Assembly: GCA_018882975.1 (NCBI GenBank)
Contig: VEQZ01000013.1
Coordinates: forward strand, 1-33,796
Direction: 5' to 3'
Source: Rhodocyclaceae bacterium
GTDB lineage: Bacteria; Pseudomonadota; Gammaproteobacteria; Burkholderiales; UBA3065
Length of the DNA: 33,796 nucleotides
The position numbers and the translations under genes are program-made. Below, piece by piece: positions 1-8,458 of the stretch. Under the pieces are notes generated by a model. It was not told the origin of the DNA. It saw only the letters and a list, made by a program, of their open reading frames with translations, and made no database searches. The first letter of the stretch is position 1. Every line of letters begins with the position of its first letter.

Positions 1-383
1 GCATGGCGCTGGTCGCCATCCGCAAGCAGTACCCCGGCCACGCGCGCCGCGTGATGTTCGGCATCTGGGGCTTTTTGCGGCAGTTCATGTACACCAAGTT
101 CATTGTCGTGCTCGACCACGACGTGGACATTCGCGACTGGAAAGAGGTGATTTGGGCCATCACCACCCGTGTCGACCCGGCGCGCGATACGCTGATGGCC
201 GAGAACACACCGATCGACTACCTCGACTTCGCCAGCCCGGTGTCGGGGCTCGGCAGTAAGATGGGCATCGACGCGACGAACAAATTGCCGGGCGAGACGC
301 AGCGCGAGTGGGGGACGCCGATCGTCATGGATGCGGCGGTAAGGCGCAGAGTGGACGAGTTGTTCAAGAATTTGCGGCTGTAG
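1..383 (+). CDS. ubiD: UbiD-family decarboxylase, 3' end (partial)
   Basis: This is the C-terminal 126 residues of a UbiD-type prenylated-FMN-dependent decarboxylase, which in ubiquinone synthesis decarboxylates 3-octaprenyl-4-hydroxybenzoate. The reading frame is open to the left edge, so the gene is cut by the window. The visible stretch has the UbiD C-terminal pattern: a '[14 protein letters not shown]' segment, then 'WAITTRVDP', then the '[11 protein letters not shown]' signature. The canonical form has about 490 residues, so three quarters lie outside. The stop codon lies inside an 11-base inverted repeat (374–384/408–418). UbiD itself is more likely than a phenolic-acid decarboxylase because this tail matches the ubiquinone enzyme closely, but the cut leaves room for a paralogue. 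Confidence 0.93.
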
Positions 384-418
384 AGGTCTGCTGTTTTGCA
401 TTGATGGTCTACAGCCGC
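374..418. repeat. 11-bp perfect inverted repeat across the ubiD stop codon
   Basis: GCGGCTGTAGA at 374–384 is repeated as its exact reverse complement TCTACAGCCGC at 408–418, with a 23-base spacer. The left arm contains the TAG stop of ubiD. No run of T follows on either strand, so it is not a standard intrinsic terminator. It could be a transcript-end hairpin or mark the junction where the lower-GC island begins. The remainder of 384–656 contains no convincing gene. Confidence 0.6.
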
Positions 419-656
419 TGGCCGATCTCATGCTGGTTGAAAAAGCAAGGCTCTTCGGTTCGAGCCAAACTGAGGTCCAGTTGTAAGAGCAGTGGATCAA
501 CTCTCGCCACGATGTCCCCGAATACCGGTTGGCGCGCATCTGATGTCCGAGTTGTTTGGTCGCCAAAATAAGCCACCGTGAGCATCAGGTCTTAAGATTT
601 GAGTCAACGCGGCTCTTGTCGGTTAGACTTCCACCGAGCAAAAATTATTCATCGAT

Positions 657-1550
657 ATGTTTGGGCCGGATATCCTTGCAAGAACGTTGTCAGTTCCCAC
701 CTATGGCAGTCTGGGAAGCCCATTTCAATACGGCAGGTCTTGGCAATACCACTCTCGCAGTGACCGGCACTCGAAAGTAGCCTGCTGGGGAGTGGTTCTG
801 GATTTGCTGATGGTCTGTCCTCTTTTGAGGGAGCATGCAGAGAAGGGTCGAGTTGGCTTGGGCATAAACCATGAGATGAGAGACTTTAGAAACAATAAGA
901 AGAAAAACCTCGACCTCGTTATTTGTCCTGCGGGTGGGGCCGCAGCAGGCCGTGGAGGATCACGCGGCGGATCGGCTAAGGCTCTTACCTTTGATGAACT
1001 AGTACCACAGTACGGCATTCGACTCTCAGCCGAAGAGCACGCAGCCCTACTCAAATTGCCCCAGTTTCCAATCGCCGGCGTAGGCAATGTGCTTCTGGCA
1101 CTAGAGGCGAAAGCGGCGATGACAGCGCATCAGAAGGCGCGGCCCCGTCTTAAGGACGAGTTAACCAGCAGCTTCCAGACCATTCATGGCGACAATGAAC
1201 GCGCCATTGCGGCAGGGTTGGTGATGGTGAATGCTGCGGACAACTTCATCTCTCCCGACATGAACAAACATCCACTCGGGAGCGCGGATGAAAAGTTAAA
1301 CATTCACAAGCAACCCCGCGATGCTCAGCAGGTTATTTCGTCACTTCGCGACTTGCAGCGCAGATCCAGAGTTGACGACGTTGGCTTTGATGCAATCGGA
1401 GTGATTTCAGTTGAGTGCAAAAACAACGGTGAACCGGTGAAGGTGGTCGCTAGTGGGGAAGCTGCCCCCATCCCGGAGGACGACTTTCATTACGCGCGGT
1501 TCGTCGATAGGATCGCGCACCTTTACTCCACTAGGTTCCAGTTGCTCTAG
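657..1550 (+). CDS. putative type II restriction endonuclease (PD-(D/E)XK-like)
   Basis: A 297-residue protein of no family I can name with certainty. It is probably the nuclease partner of the convergent methyltransferase. Support is a conserved-looking N-terminus ('YHSRSDRHSKVACW', residues 31–44), a charged segment 'NHEMRDF' (71–77), a candidate catalytic Asp87 in 'NLDLVI', and 'LALEAK' (147–152), which gives a D…E-x-K set (Asp87, Glu150, Lys152) typical of PD-(D/E)XK nucleases. The block 'RPRLKDELTSSFQTIHG' follows. Residues 93–107 are Gly/Arg-rich and may be a loop. ATG at 657 is the first usable start after an in-frame stop at 624–626; no strong ribosome-binding site is seen. GC is clearly lower than in the flanking genes (25 of 60 bases at 841–900). 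The last four bases overlap the methyltransferase stop. Nuclease function is an inference. Confidence 0.68.
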   Translation: MFGPDILARTLSVPTYGSLGSPFQYGRSWQYHSRSDRHSKVACWGVVLDLLMVCPLLREHAEKGRVGLGINHEMRDFRNNKKKNLDLVICPAGGAAAGRGGSRGGSAKALTFDELVPQYGIRLSAEEHAALLKLPQFPIAGVGNVLLALEAKAAMTAHQKARPRLKDELTSSFQTIHGDNERAIAAGLVMVNAADNFISPDMNKHPLGSADEKLNIHKQPRDAQQVISSLRDLQRRSRVDDVGFDAIGVISVECKNNGEPVKVVASGEAAPIPEDDFHYARFVDRIAHLYSTRFQLL

Positions 1551-2737
1551 GCGGCTAAGTCAAGTTTGCCTTGAACCACGTCTTGGTCCGGGTTGCCACC
1601 CATCGCACGAAGGTGATTCCGAACTGCTTCTATAAAGCCTGGTTCAAACCGCAGTTTGGCCCTTTTGGTACGGCTGTAAAAGCCGGCCGTTGCTCTCGCG
1701 GAGAGCGGTTGTAGTGGCCCCTGCAGAAAATTTTCGAGTGGCGGTGAGCGCAACCCGATTGGGTCGCTACTTACTGCGACTGCGAAGCGAGATTTCCCAT
1801 CGTAGGCGGCAGCGCGAGGGCATTTGCCGGTTTCTGGAAAATTAAGCTTTTGGTCAACACTGAGCTCTTGATGGCGCACGGGTGATACCAATCGGCTCCC
1901 GATCCACTTGGCTACGGGTACGCTGACTGCGCTCCCCACAAGTCCCCAACGGTAACCCGCTTTCGCTACTTTCTCGGCCGCTTTTGTCCAACCGCGCGGG
2001 AAGCCTTGAAGTGCTTCACCGTCTTCGATACTCGGCCGCACGATTTGGCCATTTGGCATGAGCACCGCCGGAGGAGATGCGATTCCCAAAGTCGACCCAT
2101 TTTTCAGAGTTGGAACCGCATCCACTGCCCAACCCAACCCCCCTAGGCCCTCAGTCCAATAGAACCCATGGGCAAGCGCGCCCAACGAAGTTTTCGGCCT
2201 AGGCATGAGGGCGTCGTCGGTGAGCAGCACAGTTGAGGGATCAAGTGCCACACTCGCCAATAGAAAAACGCGCTCTCGGCGCTGCGGGAGGCCAAATCCG
2301 AGGGTATCGACGACGCGGTACGCCCAGCGGTACCCGAGCCGTTCGAACTCTTCAACGATGGCGCGCATGGCGCGGCCGCCCCCCAATTGCAACATGAAGG
2401 GCACGTTCTCTATGACTACGATAGGTATCCGTTGTCGGTCCAAGAGCCGGAAAACCTCTGCGATGAGGCTCGACTTTGAACCATCGAGCCCTGCAGTTCT
2501 TCCCGCCTGGCTCAAGTCCTGACAAGGGAATCCGGCGGTCAGACAGTCAATACCGGCAGGCAGATCGCGCAGAGAGGTCACGTCGTCGTGGTAGTCAACC
2601 TCAGCAAACTTCTCGGTCAGCACTTCCTTGGCTTGAGGAAGAACGTCACAAAGCAACTTGGCTTCATAGCTCGCGTCGGCAAGTCTGAAGCCAAGTTCTA
2701 AGCCTCCGATGCCTGCGAAGAGCCCTGCAACGCGCAT
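1547..2737 (-). CDS. DNA (cytosine-5)-methyltransferase
   Basis: A 396-residue C5-cytosine methyltransferase that transfers a methyl group from S-adenosylmethionine to cytosine in a specific DNA site. Motifs appear in canonical order: I 'LFAGIGGLELGF' (6–17), IV 'GFPCQDLSQAG' with catalytic Cys72, VI 'ENVPF' (110–114), VIII 'QRRERVF' (152–158), IX around 'GEALQGFPRGW' (240–250) and X 'VGSAVSVPVAKWIG' (267–280). The recognition region between VIII and IX is about 80 residues, suggesting a single target. Unusually, some 115 residues follow motif X, where most relatives end. A GGGGT stretch lies just before the ATG. It is convergent with the putative endonuclease and shares the CTAG at its end. 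No Vsr or controller-protein gene is present. The recognition sequence cannot be deduced. Confidence 0.95.
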   Translation of the reverse strand: MRVAGLFAGIGGLELGFRLADASYEAKLLCDVLPQAKEVLTEKFAEVDYHDDVTSLRDLPAGIDCLTAGFPCQDLSQAGRTAGLDGSKSSLIAEVFRLLDRQRIPIVVIENVPFMLQLGGGRAMRAIVEEFERLGYRWAYRVVDTLGFGLPQRRERVFLLASVALDPSTVLLTDDALMPRPKTSLGALAHGFYWTEGLGGLGWAVDAVPTLKNGSTLGIASPPAVLMPNGQIVRPSIEDGEALQGFPRGWTKAAEKVAKAGYRWGLVGSAVSVPVAKWIGSRLVSPVRHQELSVDQKLNFPETGKCPRAAAYDGKSRFAVAVSSDPIGLRSPPLENFLQGPLQPLSARATAGFYSRTKRAKLRFEPGFIEAVRNHLRAMGGNPDQDVVQGKLDLAA

Positions 2738-2810
2738 GTCAACCCCACTGATATTTTTTACAGTGCAACCAGTCTGAATCCTACCCTACGCCGAGGCTGA
2801 GTGGGAATGA

Positions 2811-2858
2811 TCCGATGGCAGTGCATTGACGGCAACAGTACAAGAAATAGCCATCGGA
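2811..2858. repeat. 9-bp perfect inverted repeat at the right side of the R-M island
   Basis: TCCGATGGC at 2811–2819 pairs exactly with GCCATCGGA at 2850–2858 across 30 bases. It lies between the methyltransferase start (2737) and the psiE stop (2869), both on the minus strand. There is no T-run, so a simple psiE terminator is unlikely. A regulator site or the trace of an insertion are possible alternatives. The rest of 2738–2868 holds no gene. Confidence 0.5.
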
Positions 2859-2868
2859 GATGCCTCTT

Positions 2869-3345
2869 TTAGTCCGCATCCGTCCGCCCCACCGCCTTAC
2901 GGTCGGACGGGTAGTGGAAGGATGCGTAGCGCAGTGCTACCACCGACGCCGCAAGCACCAGCACCGAGCCGCTCCAGATCAGAATGGTCAGGGTGTCCGA
3001 CTTGACGTTGACGAGGTCGATCAGGTGCCGCGTCAGCGCGGTGATGCCGACGTAGATGAGGAAGCGCACCGGCATATGGTTGGTCTGGAAGTAGATACCG
3101 ACCATCGCGCCGACCTCGAGGTAGATGAACAGCAGCAGCAAGTCCTCGACCGTGGCACGCCCGACCGACACCATGTGGGCGATGGCCGCCAGCGCCGCCC
3201 ACACCGTGGCGGCACCGATGGCGAACAGCATGAGGTGGTGAAACGCCCCCACCAGTGCCGCGCCCACCGAGCGGCTGCGTGACTCCCACAGGCTGTGCTG
3301 GCGCGCGAGTTCGCGCAGTTCGGGCTGCTGCCGGGGGCTTGCCAT
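2869..3345 (-). CDS. psiE: PsiE-family phosphate-starvation-inducible membrane protein
   Basis: A 158-residue inner-membrane protein of the PsiE family, whose Escherichia coli member is induced by phosphate starvation; its biochemical role is unknown. About four hydrophobic segments are seen (roughly 32–58, 65–90, 92–112, 118–140). The family-typical core 'LLLFIYLEVGAMVGIYFQ' (69–86) is followed by 'HMPVRFLIYVGITALTRHLI'. Its ATG overlaps the TGA of the upstream PepSY gene by one base (TGATG), so the two are very likely translated together. Nothing resembling a Pho box was identified upstream, so phosphate control here is not supported by the sequence. Confidence 0.9.
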   Translation of the reverse strand: MASPRQQPELRELARQHSLWESRSRSVGAALVGAFHHLMLFAIGAATVWAALAAIAHMVSVGRATVEDLLLLFIYLEVGAMVGIYFQTNHMPVRFLIYVGITALTRHLIDLVNVKSDTLTILIWSGSVLVLAASVVALRYASFHYPSDRKAVGRTDAD

Positions 3346-3680
3346 CAGTCGTCGTGCTCCTCTTTCATGCGCACCAGTTCGCCGGTCTTGGCGTTGATCT
3401 CGACTTCCCAGAACACGCCCTGCGCGTCAAGGACGTCGACCTCGTAGGTGTAGCGGTCACCCTTGACCTCGAAGTCGGTCTCGATGATGCGGCCCGGCTT
3501 GGCCTCCAGCGCCTTGGCGTGGATCTGCTCGAGCGGCAGGATCTCGGCGGCCTTCTGCAGTTTGCGGGCGACGGCGCGTTCGCTATGCATCAGGCCAGTC
3601 TCGTGTGCAGCCCAGATGCCGCCCAGCGCGACGGCGGCGCCGACGACGAAAGCGATCAAGGTGCGAATGGTGGAAGGCAT
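3345..3680 (-). CDS. PepSY-domain membrane-anchored protein
   Basis: A 111-residue protein with an N-terminal hydrophobic segment (about 7–25), which may be an uncleaved anchor or signal peptide. One PepSY domain follows (about 35–108): helix 'ARKLQKAAEILPLEQIHAKA', then β-strands 'IIETDFEVKGDRYTYEVDVLDAQG' and 'FWEVEINAKTGEL'. PepSY domains occur in periplasmic or extracytoplasmic proteins and some inhibit proteases; the target here is unknown. The start is well supported by AAAGGAG seven bases before ATG. It is the first gene of a two-gene unit with psiE, so a periplasmic sensor or chaperone role for that membrane protein is conceivable but unproven. Confidence 0.85.
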   Translation of the reverse strand: MPSTIRTLIAFVVGAAVALGGIWAAHETGLMHSERAVARKLQKAAEILPLEQIHAKALEAKPGRIIETDFEVKGDRYTYEVDVLDAQGVFWEVEINAKTGELVRMKEEHDD

Positions 3681-3819
3681 GTCGATCTCCTTTGCTGTTG
3701 TTTTTCGTCCGCAATGGGGCGGAGTGCGCTTCAGACTGCCATGCTGGCGATTGATTCAACCGCGCCGCGATGCTCGCAAGACTGCCGGACGGTGTGCCTG
3801 ACGTTTGTCAGATGACGAC

Positions 3820-4614
3820 TCAATGGCCCTGCGCCGCCGCCTCGCTGCGGCGGAACACCCAGCGGTCGGCCTTGGAGGCGTCCGGGGCAAAGCGGTAGCC
3901 GGCGCTGTCGAAGCCCTTGAGCGCCTCGACGTCGGCGACGCGATTGACCACCGCCCAGCGCGCCATCAGACCGCGCGCCTTCTTGGCGTAAAAACTCACG
4001 ATCTTGTATTTGCCGGCCTTTTCGTCTTCGAAGACGGGCGTCACCACGCGCGCCTTGAGCACCTTGGGTGCGATCGCCTTGAAGTACTCCTCGCTGGCCA
4101 GATTGACCAGCACCGGCGCTGGGTCGGCGCCGAAGTCGGCATTCAAAGACTCGGCGATGCGCGGGCCCCAGAACGCGTAGAGGTCGCGCCCGCCCGGGTT
4201 GGGCAGCGCGGTGCCCATCTCCAGCCGGTAGGGCTGCATGCGGTCGAGCGGGCGCAGCACGCCGTAGAGCCCGGAGAGGATGCGCACATGGTCCTGCGCC
4301 CAGGCCAGGTCTTCGGCGCCCAAGGTCCGCGCCGACAGGCCGTCGTAGACATCGCCATCGAAGGCCAGCGCCGCCTGCTTGCTGTTGGCCGGCGTGAACT
4401 GCGGTGTCCAGGCCGAGTAGCGCTCGACATTGAGCAGGGCCAGCTTGTCCGAGAGGTCCATCAGCGTGGCGACATCCTGCGGGCTCTTCCGCCGCAGGAT
4501 GTCGATGAGTTGGCTGCTCTGCGGCACGAAGCGTGGCTCGCTGGCGGTATCGACGTGCGGCGGGGTGTCGTAATCGAGCGACTTGGCGGGGGAGAGGACG
4601 ATCAGCATCGGCAT
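3820..4614 (-). CDS. yaaA: YaaA/DUF328 peroxide-stress protein
   Basis: A 264-residue member of the YaaA (UPF0246) family. In E. coli the protein lowers free iron and limits DNA damage during hydrogen peroxide stress and belongs to the OxyR regulon. Family marks are '[13 protein letters not shown]' at the N-terminus, 'DLSDKLA', '[16 protein letters not shown]', '[22 protein letters not shown]' split over the middle, and '[17 protein letters not shown]' near the C-terminus. The ATG at 4614 gives M-P-M-L-I; the second ATG at 4608 aligns with the E. coli start and is an equal candidate. The longer in-frame extension to 4833 is Arg-rich and unlike the family, so it was not used. It is divergent from murB across 227 bases. 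Confidence 0.93.
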
Positions 4615-4841
4615 TGACCAGAGGACGATTGAGTGGGGCGTCGGGTCGGGGGCGCATAAGTCGGCATCGCGCGGCTCCGCCAAGGTGCGATGCGGCACGG
4701 CGCGCCCGGCACGGCGTGACCTGAGTTGGCGAGACGCGCCATGGTGCAGAATGCCCATATTGTAGGTCGCCGGAATCGCAGCAAGCCATCCGGCGCTGCC
4801 CCAACCCTCGACGCCACCCGTACGCGCCGCCACGGCGAAGC

Positions 4842-5852
4842 ATGCAGATCCAGCACAACGCCGACCTCCGGCGGCTCAACACCTTTGGCGTAGCGGCGCG
4901 TGCCGTCACCTTGGTGACGCTGCGCAGTGCCGGCGAGGCGCGCGACCTGTTGCGGCAGCGTGCGCTCATGGCAGCGCCGATGCTGATGCTCGGTGGCGGC
5001 AGCAATATTCTCTTTACCCGCGATTGGGACGGGGTGGTGGTGGTGCCGCGCTTGCTCGATCGCGAGGTCGACAGCAGTCAGGGCGACACCGTCACGGTGG
5101 TCGCCGGTGCCGGCGAGGATTGGGACGGCTTCGTGCGCTGGACACTGGGGCTGGGGCTCGCCGGCCTCGAGAACCTGTCGCTCATCCCCGGCAGCGTGGG
5201 CGCTGCGCCGATCCAGAACATCGGCGCCTATGGCGTCGAACTGCGCGACCGCCTGCTCTGGGTCGAGACCTTCGACTGGCAGAGCGGCCGCACCGACCGG
5301 CTCTACAACGCCGACTGCGGCTTCGGCTACCGCGACAGCGTGTTCAAGCACGAACTCGCCGGCCGGCTGGTGACGCGTGTCGCCTTCAGACTGAGCCGCA
5401 CCCCCGACCTCGAACTCGACTATGGCGACATCCGCCAGGAACTGGCAGACCGCCAGCTCACCCGCCCCACGCCGCTGCAGGTGGCCGAGGCGGTGTGCGC
5501 CATTCGCCGGCGCAAGCTGCCCGACCCGGCGCACATCGGCAACGCTGGCAGCTTCTTCCGCAACCCGGTCATCGCCGGGGCGCATGCGGCAGATTTGCGG
5601 GAGGCGCATCCGGCCATGCCGCAGTTTGCCGCCCTCGGCGGAGCCAAGGTCCCGGCGGGCTGGTTGATCGAGGCCTGCGGCTGGAAGGGCAGGCGCGAGG
5701 GCGACGCCGGGGTTCACGCCGACCACGCTTTGGTGCTGGTCAACCACGGCAAGGCCACCGGTGCGCAGATCCATGCGCTCGCCCTGCGCGTCGTCGACAG
5801 CGTCCGCGAACGGTTTGGCATCACGCTGGAGCCCGAGGTGAGAGTCGTCTGA
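4842..5852 (+). CDS. murB: UDP-N-acetylenolpyruvoylglucosamine reductase MurB
   Basis: A 336-residue cytosolic flavoenzyme that reduces UDP-GlcNAc-enolpyruvate to UDP-MurNAc with NADPH, the second committed step of peptidoglycan precursor synthesis. It has the type I (E. coli-like) architecture: an N-terminal 'LNTFGV' FAD-binding start (11–16), 'MLGGGSNIL' (49–57), '[22 protein letters not shown]' (the FAD loop, near 110–131), the 'YRDSVFK' loop with the catalytic-type serine, and the C-terminal '[11 protein letters not shown]' and '[12 protein letters not shown]' blocks. Length matches the family. ATG at 4842 begins '[16 protein letters not shown]', as expected. It is monocistronic by spacing, with yciB about 147 bases downstream. 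Confidence 0.97.
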
Positions 5853-5999
5853 CCAACGGTACCCGTTCAATTCAGAACCGGTAATTCAAAACCGGTTGTA
5901 AGCGGCCCACTCCCTCGTGTGTCCTTTCTCTCGCTTCTCAAAAGTCGCTTCGAAAAGGACACCCGACGGGGGCCGCCAGTGGCGGTTATCATCTGCGCC

Positions 6000-6617
6000 A
6001 TGCGATTCCTCTTTGATCTGCTACCGGTCATCCTGTTCTTTGCCGCCTACCGCTGGGCCGGGCACGACGCCGCTGTGGCCGCCCAGTGGCTGGCGCACAT
6101 CGGGCTCGCCGGCGTGGTCGAAAAGGTCGCGCCGATCCTGCTCGCCACCGGCGTGGCCGTCGTCGCTAGCGTGGTGCAGGTGGGCACGCTGCTGGCCCTG
6201 CGCCGCCGCGTCGACACCATGCTCTGGGTCAGTCTGGCGCTGATCGTCGGCATGGGCGGGCTCACGCTCTGGCTCCAGGATCCGGTCTTCATCATGTGGA
6301 AGCCGACCCTGCTCTACTGGACCTTCGCCATCACCCTCGGCGCTTCAGCCTGGCTGTTGCGGCGCAACCTGATGCGGACGCTGATGGGCGAGCAACTGCA
6401 ACTGCCGGCGCCGGTCTGGGCGCGCCTTAACCTGGCATGGGTGGGTTTTTTTACCTTCATGGGCGCGCTCAACCTGTTCGTGGCCTACCACTTCGACGAG
6501 TCGACCTGGGTGAGTTTCAAGCTCTACGGTGGCATCGGCCTGATGCTGCTGTTCGTCGCCGGCCAAGGCGTTTGGCTTGCACGCCACTTGCCCGATGCCC
6601 CCGATCGCGGCGCTTGA
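6000..6617 (+). CDS. yciB: YciB/IspZ-family inner-membrane septation protein
   Basis: A 205-residue polytopic protein of the YciB (septation protein A, IspZ) family, linked to envelope integrity and cell division in other bacteria. Five or six hydrophobic segments are visible, starting at 'LFDLLPVILFFAAY' (3–16). Family blocks include 'VQVGTLLALRRRVDTMLW', 'LTLWLQDPVFIMWKPT' and 'WARLNLAWVGFF'. I chose ATG 6000 because the family begins with M-[KR]-F-L-F-D; a GTG at 5919 would add 27 residues that do not resemble the family. It starts the yciB–yciI–bolA–ppiC order common in betaproteobacteria. Confidence 0.95.
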   Translation: MRFLFDLLPVILFFAAYRWAGHDAAVAAQWLAHIGLAGVVEKVAPILLATGVAVVASVVQVGTLLALRRRVDTMLWVSLALIVGMGGLTLWLQDPVFIMWKPTLLYWTFAITLGASAWLLRRNLMRTLMGEQLQLPAPVWARLNLAWVGFFTFMGALNLFVAYHFDESTWVSFKLYGGIGLMLLFVAGQGVWLARHLPDAPDRGA

Positions 6618-6779
6618 GCGCGCATCGAGCGTCCGGGCGACAGCGTCCCGCCACCGCCCCGACCACCGCATGCAGCGACAACCAAGGGACATGCACCACG
6701 ACCCTAGCCGCCCATGCCCGCGTTCACGGCGCACCCCATTCACAACACGCCCACCCCTCGATCCAAGGAGCCCCGCGCC

Positions 6780-7082
6780 ATGTTCTACGCCATCATCAGT
6801 GAGGACGTTCCCGATTCGCTGCCGCTGCGCCTGCCGGCGCGGCCGGCGCACCTCGAGCGCCTGAGCGCGCTGCAGGCCGAGGGGCGTCTGCTGCTGGCGG
6901 GCCCGCATCCGGCGATCGACAGCGAGGACCCGGGCCCGGCGGGTTTTTCGGGGAGCCTGGTGGTGGCGCAGTTCGATTCGCTGGCCGACGCGCAGGCTTG
7001 GGCCGACGCCGATCCCTATGTGGCTGCCGGCGCCTACGCCAAGGTCACGGTCAAGCCCTTCCGACGGGTGTTTCCGCAGTGA
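6780..7082 (+). CDS. yciI: YciI-like protein
   Basis: A 100-residue protein of the YciI family, with a ferredoxin-like fold and a conserved His/Asp pair in some members. The exact reaction is unknown for most members. Visible are 'FYAIISEDV' (2–10), '[24 protein letters not shown]' spread over 21–44 with the conserved His, and '[22 protein letters not shown]' near the end. An AAGGAG sits nine bases ahead of ATG 6780; the upstream in-frame ATG at 6714 is rejected because the added residues are not family-like. The stop codon overlaps the GTG of the bolA-like gene. Confidence 0.93.
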
Positions 7083-7462
7083 GCGCCGTACTGGCCGATG
7101 ACCGCGGCGCCGGTAACGATGGCAGCGCCGCCGCGCCCACGCTCCTCGAAGAGGTGCGCGCCCGCCTGCAAGTGCTCGGCCCGACCGCGCTCGACCTGCG
7201 CGACGACAGCGCGCGTCACGCCGGCCACGCCGGCAGCAACGGTGGTGGCCATCTGGTGCTGCGCATCGTCTCGCCACAGTTCGACGGGCTTGGCACGGTG
7301 GCGCGGCACCGCCGCATCTACGCCGAGGTGGGTGACCTCATGCCGGCGCGTCTGCACGCGCTCGCCATCACCGCGCTGACGCCACGCGAGGCCGCGGCGC
7401 TGGCGGCGCCAGAGCCAGAGCATGGCGTCCAGTCACGCGCGCCGACGCCGGATGCGCCATAG
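7079..7462 (+). CDS. bolA: BolA-family protein
   Basis: A 127-residue BolA-like protein. The family binds monothiol glutaredoxins and [2Fe–2S] clusters or acts as a stress and morphology regulator. The BolA core runs from about residue 18 to 105: 'LLEEVRARL', '[15 protein letters not shown]', '[14 protein letters not shown]', '[15 protein letters not shown]', '[11 protein letters not shown]'. The conserved 'RHR' and 'LHAL' elements are intact. The start is GTG 7079, which overlaps the yciI stop (GTGA), so translational coupling is likely. The last 20 residues (Ala/Pro/Glu-rich) extend beyond the domain and look disordered. Confidence 0.92.
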
Positions 7463-7654
7463 GGAACTTGGCGCCCGCCTTCTGGCCCTATACTCCGCCG
7501 CGCGTCAGAGTGGCCTGCCGCCACCATTCACGTTCCTGACCCGAATCCAGCCACAATCCTGCCCGTCCGCATCACACTTCTCCATTGCCGATCCGTTCAT
7601 CGCCATCACGGCGCCGTTCGCCGCCGGCACACCTGTACTCTGGAGCCGACACCC

Positions 7655-8458
7655 ATGAAGCGACACCCTTTCCTTGCCGCATGTCTCGCCGCCTTGTTCG
7701 CCACGGCGGCGACCGTACCGACCCTCGCCCGTGCCGACGACGATGTCGTGGCCAAGGTCAACGGCACCGCCATCCGGCAGTCGCAGATCGAGACCGCCGC
7801 GCGCAACCTCATTGCCCAAGGCCAGCAGGACACGCCCGATCTGCGCACCCGTCTCAAAGATGAGCTGATCGCCCGCGAACTGATCCTGCAGCAGGCCGCC
7901 GCCGAGGGCCTCGACCGGCGCGACGAGGTGCGCGAGCAGATCCAACTGGCGCGCAGCAACATCCTGATCAACAGCTACCTGCAGGTTTGGGCGAGGGAGC
8001 ACCCCATCTCCGAGGACGATCTCAAGGCCGAGTACGACAAGTTCCGGGCCAATCAGCCTCCCGCCGACGAATTCCTGGCGCGACACATTCTGATCAAGGA
8101 CGAGAAGGCGGCCAAGGCGGTACTGGCCAAACTCAAGAAGGGCGAGAAGTTCGACAAACTCGCCACCGCCCTGTCCGAGGACACCGGCACCAAGGCCAAA
8201 GGTGGCGAGCTCGGCTGGGTGCGCAGCGACGCCAATCTGGTGCAACCCTTCATGGAGGCCATGAAAAAGCTCAAGAAGGGCGAGACCAGCGAGCCGGTGA
8301 AGACCGATTTCGGGTTTCACGTGATCCGTGTCGACGATGTCCGCAAGGCCGAGCCGCCGTCTTTCGAGCAGGTGCGCGCTGAACTCAACCAGTTCATGCA
8401 ACGCCGCGGCATCGAGCAGATGGTGCGTGACCTGCGCGCCAAGGCCACGGTCGAGTGA
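7655..8458 (+). CDS. periplasmic parvulin-type peptidyl-prolyl isomerase
   Basis: A 267-residue exported foldase of the PpiC/PrsA/SurA type. An N-terminal signal peptide is clear: 'MKRH', a hydrophobic stretch to about 22, and a likely cleavage after 'ARA' (26). A SurA-like N-terminal helical region follows (30–125), then a single parvulin domain (about 130–225) with 'ARHILIKDEKAAKAVL', 'FDKLATALSEDTGTKAKGGELGW' in two parts, and 'TDFGFHVIRVDDV'. Its job is inferred to be outer-membrane or periplasmic protein folding. It follows bolA after about 190 bases, so it may have its own promoter, although none was recognised. Confidence 0.94.
   Translation: MKRHPFLAACLAALFATAATVPTLARADDDVVAKVNGTAIRQSQIETAARNLIAQGQQDTPDLRTRLKDELIARELILQQAAAEGLDRRDEVREQIQLARSNILINSYLQVWAREHPISEDDLKAEYDKFRANQPPADEFLARHILIKDEKAAKAVLAKLKKGEKFDKLATALSEDTGTKAKGGELGWVRSDANLVQPFMEAMKKLKKGETSEPVKTDFGFHVIRVDDVRKAEPPSFEQVRAELNQFMQRRGIEQMVRDLRAKATVE

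Follow-up and report, generated by a model that had tools for sequence, protein, structure and literature searches.

Does a reading frame that resembles no named restriction enzyme encode the cutting half of a restriction-modification system? The question is raised by a gene near the start of a 33,796-nt stretch of contig VEQZ01000013.1 from a Rhodocyclaceae bacterium, hereafter the window. This gene, R, has an ATG start and 297 codons and adjoins a methyltransferase gene, M (Table 1). The first-pass annotation, made from the letters alone, had proposed that R is an endonuclease with a PD-(D/E)XK-like site and had found no restriction enzyme by name that it matched. The latter holds for every collection we searched. 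R has no match in Pfam, NCBIfam or PADLOC up to an E-value of 10, neither the single protein nor a 49-row profile matches any PDB sequence, and PHROGs returns one weak match, to phrog_12449 (E 4.5e-4, residues 221-271, function unknown). Searches with the 49 aligned family members gave scattered, weak Pfam, NCBIfam and PADLOC matches of one to five members each (e.g., IFRD, ArsS and Cas8g), which we set aside because they follow no consistent pattern. A search of titles and the beginnings of abstracts, which left aside most subscription papers and REBASE, returned no paper on the family, and both annotated plasmid records examined label their member of the family a hypothetical protein.

Table 1. 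Features of the R and M genes, numbered from the first base of the window
Feature	Position	Strand	Remarks
R, predicted Type II restriction endonuclease	657..1550	+	297 aa, PD-(D/E)XK fold; open reading frame, 52 homologous loci, AlphaFold2 and structural matches
R residues 15-32	699..752	+	length 17-19 in the window, L034 and L008, against 13-16 for the 43 remaining rows
Asp49 codon, candidate fourth active-site acid	801..803	+	49/49 rows; helix 37-53; role inferred
Asp86 codon, predicted first catalytic acid	912..914	+	49/49 rows; directly before strand 87-91
Gly/Arg-rich loop, residues 93-107	933..977	+	mostly an insert special to the window's R; low model confidence
Glu150-Ala151-Lys152 codons, (D/E)XK element	1104..1112	+	in strand 147-154; Lys in 49/49
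M, C5 cytosine DNA methyltransferase	1547..2737	-	396 aa; PF00145 E 6.5e-40; PADLOC MTase_II PDLC03324, 446 bits
M target-recognition stretch with TL motif, residues 191-214	2096..2167	-	Gly199, 11 residues before TL, at the Arg position

Distribution of R and its linkage to M

Relatives of R are encoded in 52 loci of other genomes, which were found by scanning GTDB species genomes with six exact peptides as seeds and do not amount to a census. Given these relatives, the frame is a real coding sequence. All but one of the 52 are 46-56% identical to R, the remaining one being 65% identical over 95 residues; most align over nearly the full length and start at the same codon position as the window's R or within a few codons of it. 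The hosts are Alpha-, Beta- and Gammaproteobacteria, Planctomycetota, Verrucomicrobiota and Myxococcota. Plasmid records add relatives from Rhizobium phaseoli, Sinorhizobium mexicanum and a Haloferacaceae archaeon (25% identity), and the R-M pair is also present on one viral contig. R thus belongs to a widespread enzyme family that is nameless in the databases searched.

Its occurrence is patchy. R is found in 2 of 369 genomes of the window's class and in 3 of 398 genomes of a phylum sample (the window's own genome counted in both), one of the latter at E 9.5e-4 with two internal stops. In the genus of the carrier of locus L012, 3 of 79 genomes have it, two of which were already known carriers. 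Each of the 10 carrier genomes examined has a single copy.

The main alignment, A1, comprises 49 rows: the window, 47 other bacterial sequences and one archaeal sequence. It omits seven copies that are broken, cut short or gapped (L042, L045 and L049-L053) and L054, which encodes the same protein as L035; alignments A2 and A3 further omit L055-L057. The archaeal row is L057 (positions 5929-6708), on a haloarchaeal plasmid, a distant relative of R (25%) that reads A-D-A-K where the window has L-E-A-K. The frames flanking it look ParB-like to us.

On the other strand from R, M matches TIGR00675 of NCBIfam in addition to the models in Table 1, and contains GFPCQDL and IENV, which we take to be its methyltransferase motifs. 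R and M are separate, linked genes that converge and share four bases at their ends (1547-1550). Linkage is typical of the family: of 59 loci with R, 53 have an M homologue no more than 3 kb away (L035 and L054, with their identical R protein, both being counted), as do 38 of the 39 whose sequence extends 3 kb or more to both sides. In five of the six loci lacking M (L021, L036 and L051-L053), the sequence stops within 213 bases downstream of the R match, and it is there, downstream of R, that most loci have their M. The remaining one, the archaeal L057, has no such methyltransferase in the 6 kb on either side. The gene orders are convergent (36 loci), M-then-R in tandem (15) and R-then-M (2); M stays near R in all three, so the linkage outlives rearrangement. 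Moreover, pairwise identities among R proteins follow those among M proteins across 45 loci (Mantel r = 0.91; maximum of 2000 permutations, 0.37). Such persistent linkage and joint inheritance are expected of a restriction enzyme and its protecting methylase.

In L049, R is out of frame and the adjoining M is matched over residues 1-379; in other rows, R is broken or cut by the contig end. These broken copies fit the view that R is the dispensable half of the pair, with assembly errors as another possible source of the breaks.

R had been described as paired only with the methyltransferase. This is true of the window, in which no vsr gene was found, but does not extend to the relatives, where a gene for Vsr is often also present: 35 of the 59 loci, and 28 of the 39 with 3 kb on both sides, have a Vsr homologue no farther than 3 kb from R. 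In 28 of those 35 it is encoded downstream of R and on the opposite strand, in most cases in the interval from R to M.

The viral contig (L061:1470-6801, from IMG/VR) carries R at 3669-4514 and M at 4558-5730 between genes that PHROGs identifies as encoding a major head protein and a head-tail adaptor, i.e., in a phage head module; this is a restriction system within a phage or gene-transfer-agent-like morphogenesis cluster. A Nocardia farcinica locus (L063:3989-5604) encodes an M of the same methyltransferase subfamily (52.9% identity) with no R match in the locus, and the reading frame after this M is, by our reading, Vsr-like.

In the window, the pair is preceded by the 3′ end of a ubiD-like gene (UbiD_C) and followed by psiE, a gene for a PepSY protein and yaaA, so that it is flanked by ordinary chromosomal genes. 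The GC content of R (54%) and M (58%) is well under the 68% of positions 2860-33796, suggesting that the pair was acquired from outside.

Active-site residues and predicted fold

Across the 49 rows of A1, Asp86 and Lys152 are invariant, and position 150 is Glu in 48 rows and Asp in one. The first-pass annotation had placed the catalytic aspartate at residue 87, which is a leucine; the conserved candidate is Asp86. Its other two site residues, Glu150 and Lys152, are borne out by the alignment. It had also stressed an unusually long gap of 62 residues that takes in a Gly/Arg-rich loop. Counted from Asp86, the gap in the window's R is 63 residues, and it is 52-60 residues in the 47 other bacterial rows and 30 in the archaeal L057. 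The bacterial spacing of 52-63 exceeds the 10-30 residues that the available text of PMC4652773 gives as usual, though not defining, for PD-(D/E)XK enzymes, and L057 lies at 30. As the relatives share a gap of this order, it is no hallmark. The loop does exist, at residues 93-107, but mostly as a disordered insert of one protein (pLDDT below 50 at residues 97-105) and not as a trait of the family. Of the suggestion that R represents a new subfamily, what stands is that no Pfam, NCBIfam or PADLOC model covers it; the gap and the loop are no sign of novelty.

We predicted structures with AlphaFold2, using 46 rows, for the window's R (pLDDT 88.1, pTM 0.89) and for the R of L003, which does not have the loop (pLDDT 91.6, pTM 0.91). 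The window model has a helix at 37-53, strands at 66-70, 74-76, 87-91 and 147-154, a helix at 158-176, a strand at 184-192, a helix at 221-231 and a strand at 246-253, and the corresponding elements are found in the second model. The predicted order of helix, antiparallel site strands, helix and further strand is that of the PD-(D/E)XK core, with the aspartate placed at a core strand and (D/E)XK inside the strand that follows.

None of three Foldseek searches gave a match that reached E ≤0.001; for the L003 model, the first row was a contractile-injection sheath (E 0.026), and in a search of viral folds, where matches were only weak, the second row was annotated "Restriction endonuclease" (probability 0.63, E 0.048). 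We then considered VIA-align, which re-aligns Foldseek's own candidates. Among its best 50 rows, the first 30 for the window model and the first 24 for the L003 model are restriction or CRISPR-linked nucleases. NucC reaches Z 8.1 (rmsd 4.1, 178 aligned residues) against the window model and Z 8.3 (rmsd 4.2, 177 aligned) against the L003 model; NgoMIV reaches Z 8.3 (rmsd 5.7, 179 aligned) against the L003 model only; BbvCI, PspGI, EcoRI, BstEII, AgeI and others are further leading matches. Unrelated chains appear from row 31 (window model) and row 25 (L003 model) on, the latter starting with mitochondrial ribosome proteins at Z 6.2, above SgrAI. Values of about 7 to 8 are often reached by models with no clear match, and no single Z is decisive here. 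The case is made jointly by the likeness of the top-ranked matches, the residues of the site and the partner gene.

On this basis, R is very probably a PD-(D/E)XK-type endonuclease paired with M, and the central proposal of the first-pass annotation is supported by the alignment, the gene context and both predicted structures. It had named a fold without this core, or high similarity to a non-nuclease family, as grounds for giving the proposal up; the core is predicted, and the leading matches are nucleases, with Foldseek by itself yielding no significant match.

The same alignment speaks to the state of the window's copy. Suppose that R were inactive or unexpressed in this genome and that M acted alone. 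The lack of a vsr gene in the window and the broken copies elsewhere, such as that of L049, would agree with this, as would the departures of the window's R from its family: at one of the 52 columns that never vary among the other 47 bacterial rows (K229, here Ser) and at five of 24 further columns with at least 95% conservation. The protein nonetheless keeps 51 of the 52 invariant columns, among them the site residues, and 19 of the 24 others. With its frame open and its site residues intact, the window's R is, as judged from sequence, most likely an active though diverged copy, and we hold its inactivity to be improbable.

Comparison with known nucleases

The closest parallel by organization is a Type IIP restriction-modification system with a C5 methyltransferase, in which R and M are likewise separate, adjoining genes and in which, as in many of the relatives here, a vsr gene may sit beside or between them. 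The present case differs in that its endonuclease matches no Pfam, NCBIfam or PADLOC family and in that the window has no Vsr.

Among the structural matches, the CCGG-family endonucleases (NgoMIV, SgrAI, Bse634I, AgeI, BsaWI and PspGI) resemble R in their PD-(D/E)XK fold, similar size and long distance between the Asp and the Lys, with Z values of about 5 to 8 against the R models. We therefore weighed whether R is itself a member of that family. Several of its structural matches come from this group, NgoMIV tying for first with the L003 model. The active site of the family is described in the available text of PMC4652773 as PDX21-53KX12-13E, with an R-(D/E)R recognition motif after the catalytic lysine. 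Relative to the 21-53 residues given there, the D-to-K distance of 65 in the window and 54-62 in the bacterial relatives is long but near the known values. PfoI, according to PMC6344858, is a member by structure with no significant sequence similarity to other members.

By these sequence motifs, R does not qualify as a member. R reads D86-X65-K152 with its Glu two residues before the Lys, a canonical E-A-K and not K-X12-13-E; the acids that follow Lys152 come at X14 and X15 (D167 and E168). The bacterial members continue as K152-A-x-M-T-x-(H/F)-x-(K/R)-A-x-P-R-L-x-D-E, with no R-(D/E)R after Lys152 in the bacterial rows shown. In addition, NucC, BbvCI and EcoRI match about equally well, CCGG and CCNGG are both missing from the 15 listed patterns that best separate genomes with R from those without, and the M motif differs from the ERN that the text of PMC2413257 gives for CCGG methyltransferases. 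We consider it quite unlikely that R is a CCGG-family endonuclease.

NucC is an effector nuclease of CBASS and type III CRISPR systems, where it forms part of a cyclic-nucleotide signaling system. Its position as best or tied-best structural match to R, at only 11% identity, and the frequency of Vsr as a neighbor raise the prospect that R is an M-linked nuclease of another kind, such as a Vsr-like repair enzyme or a NucC-like signal-activated nuclease. The surroundings of R count against this reading. R differs from NucC in its methyltransferase neighbor, which is present in 38 of the 38 bacterial loci whose sequence extends 3 kb or more each way, and in a clustering of neighboring genes, which used no models for cyclases, M and Vsr were the sole neighbor families in more than five R loci. 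Vsr, for its part, also belongs to the PD-(D/E)XK superfamily and is tied to C5 methylation, according to the accessible text of PMC4081073. It is encoded by a separate neighboring gene (PF03852); R is twice as long and has no Vsr match in the Pfam scan, and where Vsr is present, the repair role is already filled. A nuclease of this other kind appears very improbable to us.

In five loci (L056:8496-12821, L013, L015, L018 and L025), one helicase gene family adjoins M; the helicase of L056 is DruE3-like (1302.7 bits). A component of Druantia type III thus stands next to R, Vsr and M, and the L056 cluster lies near nif and nod genes on a Sinorhizobium plasmid. We rejected the idea that R is part of Druantia, as the DruE-like helicase family is present in these five loci only and is absent from the first 14 kb of the window.

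It is highly likely, in our judgment, that R and M together are a Type II restriction-modification system of probably external origin, in which M protects the host and R cuts the unmodified target. By analogy with their families, the two proteins would share one target: M would methylate cytosine at C5 within a short sequence, leaving the host protected, and R would use Mg2+ to cut unmodified copies of that sequence in incoming DNA. R would most likely act as a homodimer, each subunit contributing a PD-(D/E)XK site formed by Asp86, Glu150, Lys152 and perhaps Asp49.

Target specificity and a possible subgroup

We looked for avoidance of a target in the carriers of the system. Palindrome counts over 57 sequences (640 kb), made without a control, were low for CTAG, CTCGAG, CGATCG and others. 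For a within-genus control, we compared three genomes of the L012 genus with R (245-400 kb each) over 285 patterns with genomes without R, namely three of 440 kb each and a 220-kb mix of four more. No pattern clearly separated the two sets; the best, AAGCTT, did so by 0.04 log2, compared to 0.07 in the reverse direction, and the search yielded no target.

The recognition region of M offers another approach. As described in the text of PMC2413257, Neely and Roberts define trimers that flank the TL motif ('NNN'x10-TL-x3-'CCC') and discuss an Arg, conserved at eleven residues ahead of TL, that touches the outermost G in M.HaeIII. The trimers listed there are SRN/GRQ for GGCC, QGE/RHG for GCGC, QG(N/Q)/HHG for CGCG and ERN for CCGG. 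The relatives of the window's M carry G-x-R and mostly S-T-V or S-T-I, and the window's M has G-L-G and S-T-L. These are unlike the published trimers for GGCC, GCGC, CGCG and CCGG, a comparison with that paper's text only, which excludes little.

Among the 46 systems with an R in A1 as well as the M motif, 43 keep the Arg before TL. The three exceptions, with Gly in its place, are the window, L034 and L008, and these same three have the longest insert near the N-terminus of R (residues 15-32); in the other 43 systems, this stretch is 13 residues long in 37, 14 in five and 16 in one. The last of these, L022, keeps the Arg in its M, so the border of the subgroup is not sharp. The L008 stretch (6001-7928, Stagnimonas), which has both the long R insert and the missing M Arg, ends inside M.

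We asked how often this paired change arose. The four M proteins lacking the Arg (those of the window, L034, L008 and L062) form one clade with support of 100/99. In a free R tree, the three insert-bearing rows do not form one clade, the window grouping with L022 and L030 under a long-branch warning; in a test that omits L022 and L030 because of that warning, a topology with one R clade is not rejected (p-AU 0.265). With one clade in M and one not rejected in R, the change was probably a single event, and we set aside repeated, independent co-variation of R and M as evidence. The L062 locus (9-5830), on a Burkholderia multivorans replicon, holds the closest relative of the window's M in the plasmid collection (62.8% identity), flanked by a DruE2-like helicase gene on one side and a vsr gene on the other; the locus has no R match.

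The window, L034 and L008 are, as a hypothesis, best taken for one subgroup in which both partners have changed, and perhaps the target as well. That this is a new restriction lineage with a specificity not yet in REBASE, in which loss of a target-contacting Arg in M and gain of the R insert mark a joint shift to a second specificity, is a tentative reading, possible but on the unlikely side.

By kind, the system is an ordinary Type II restriction-modification pair whose endonuclease family is nameless in the libraries searched. Endonucleases are the hard-to-recognize half of such systems, and the R family is missed by the PADLOC defense-gene models, so that systems of this type may be taken for orphan methyltransferases; a model made from the present alignment would mend this. 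If the paired change in M and R does mark a new target, the subgroup would be a natural case of two proteins with unrelated ways of reading DNA that shift their specificity together.
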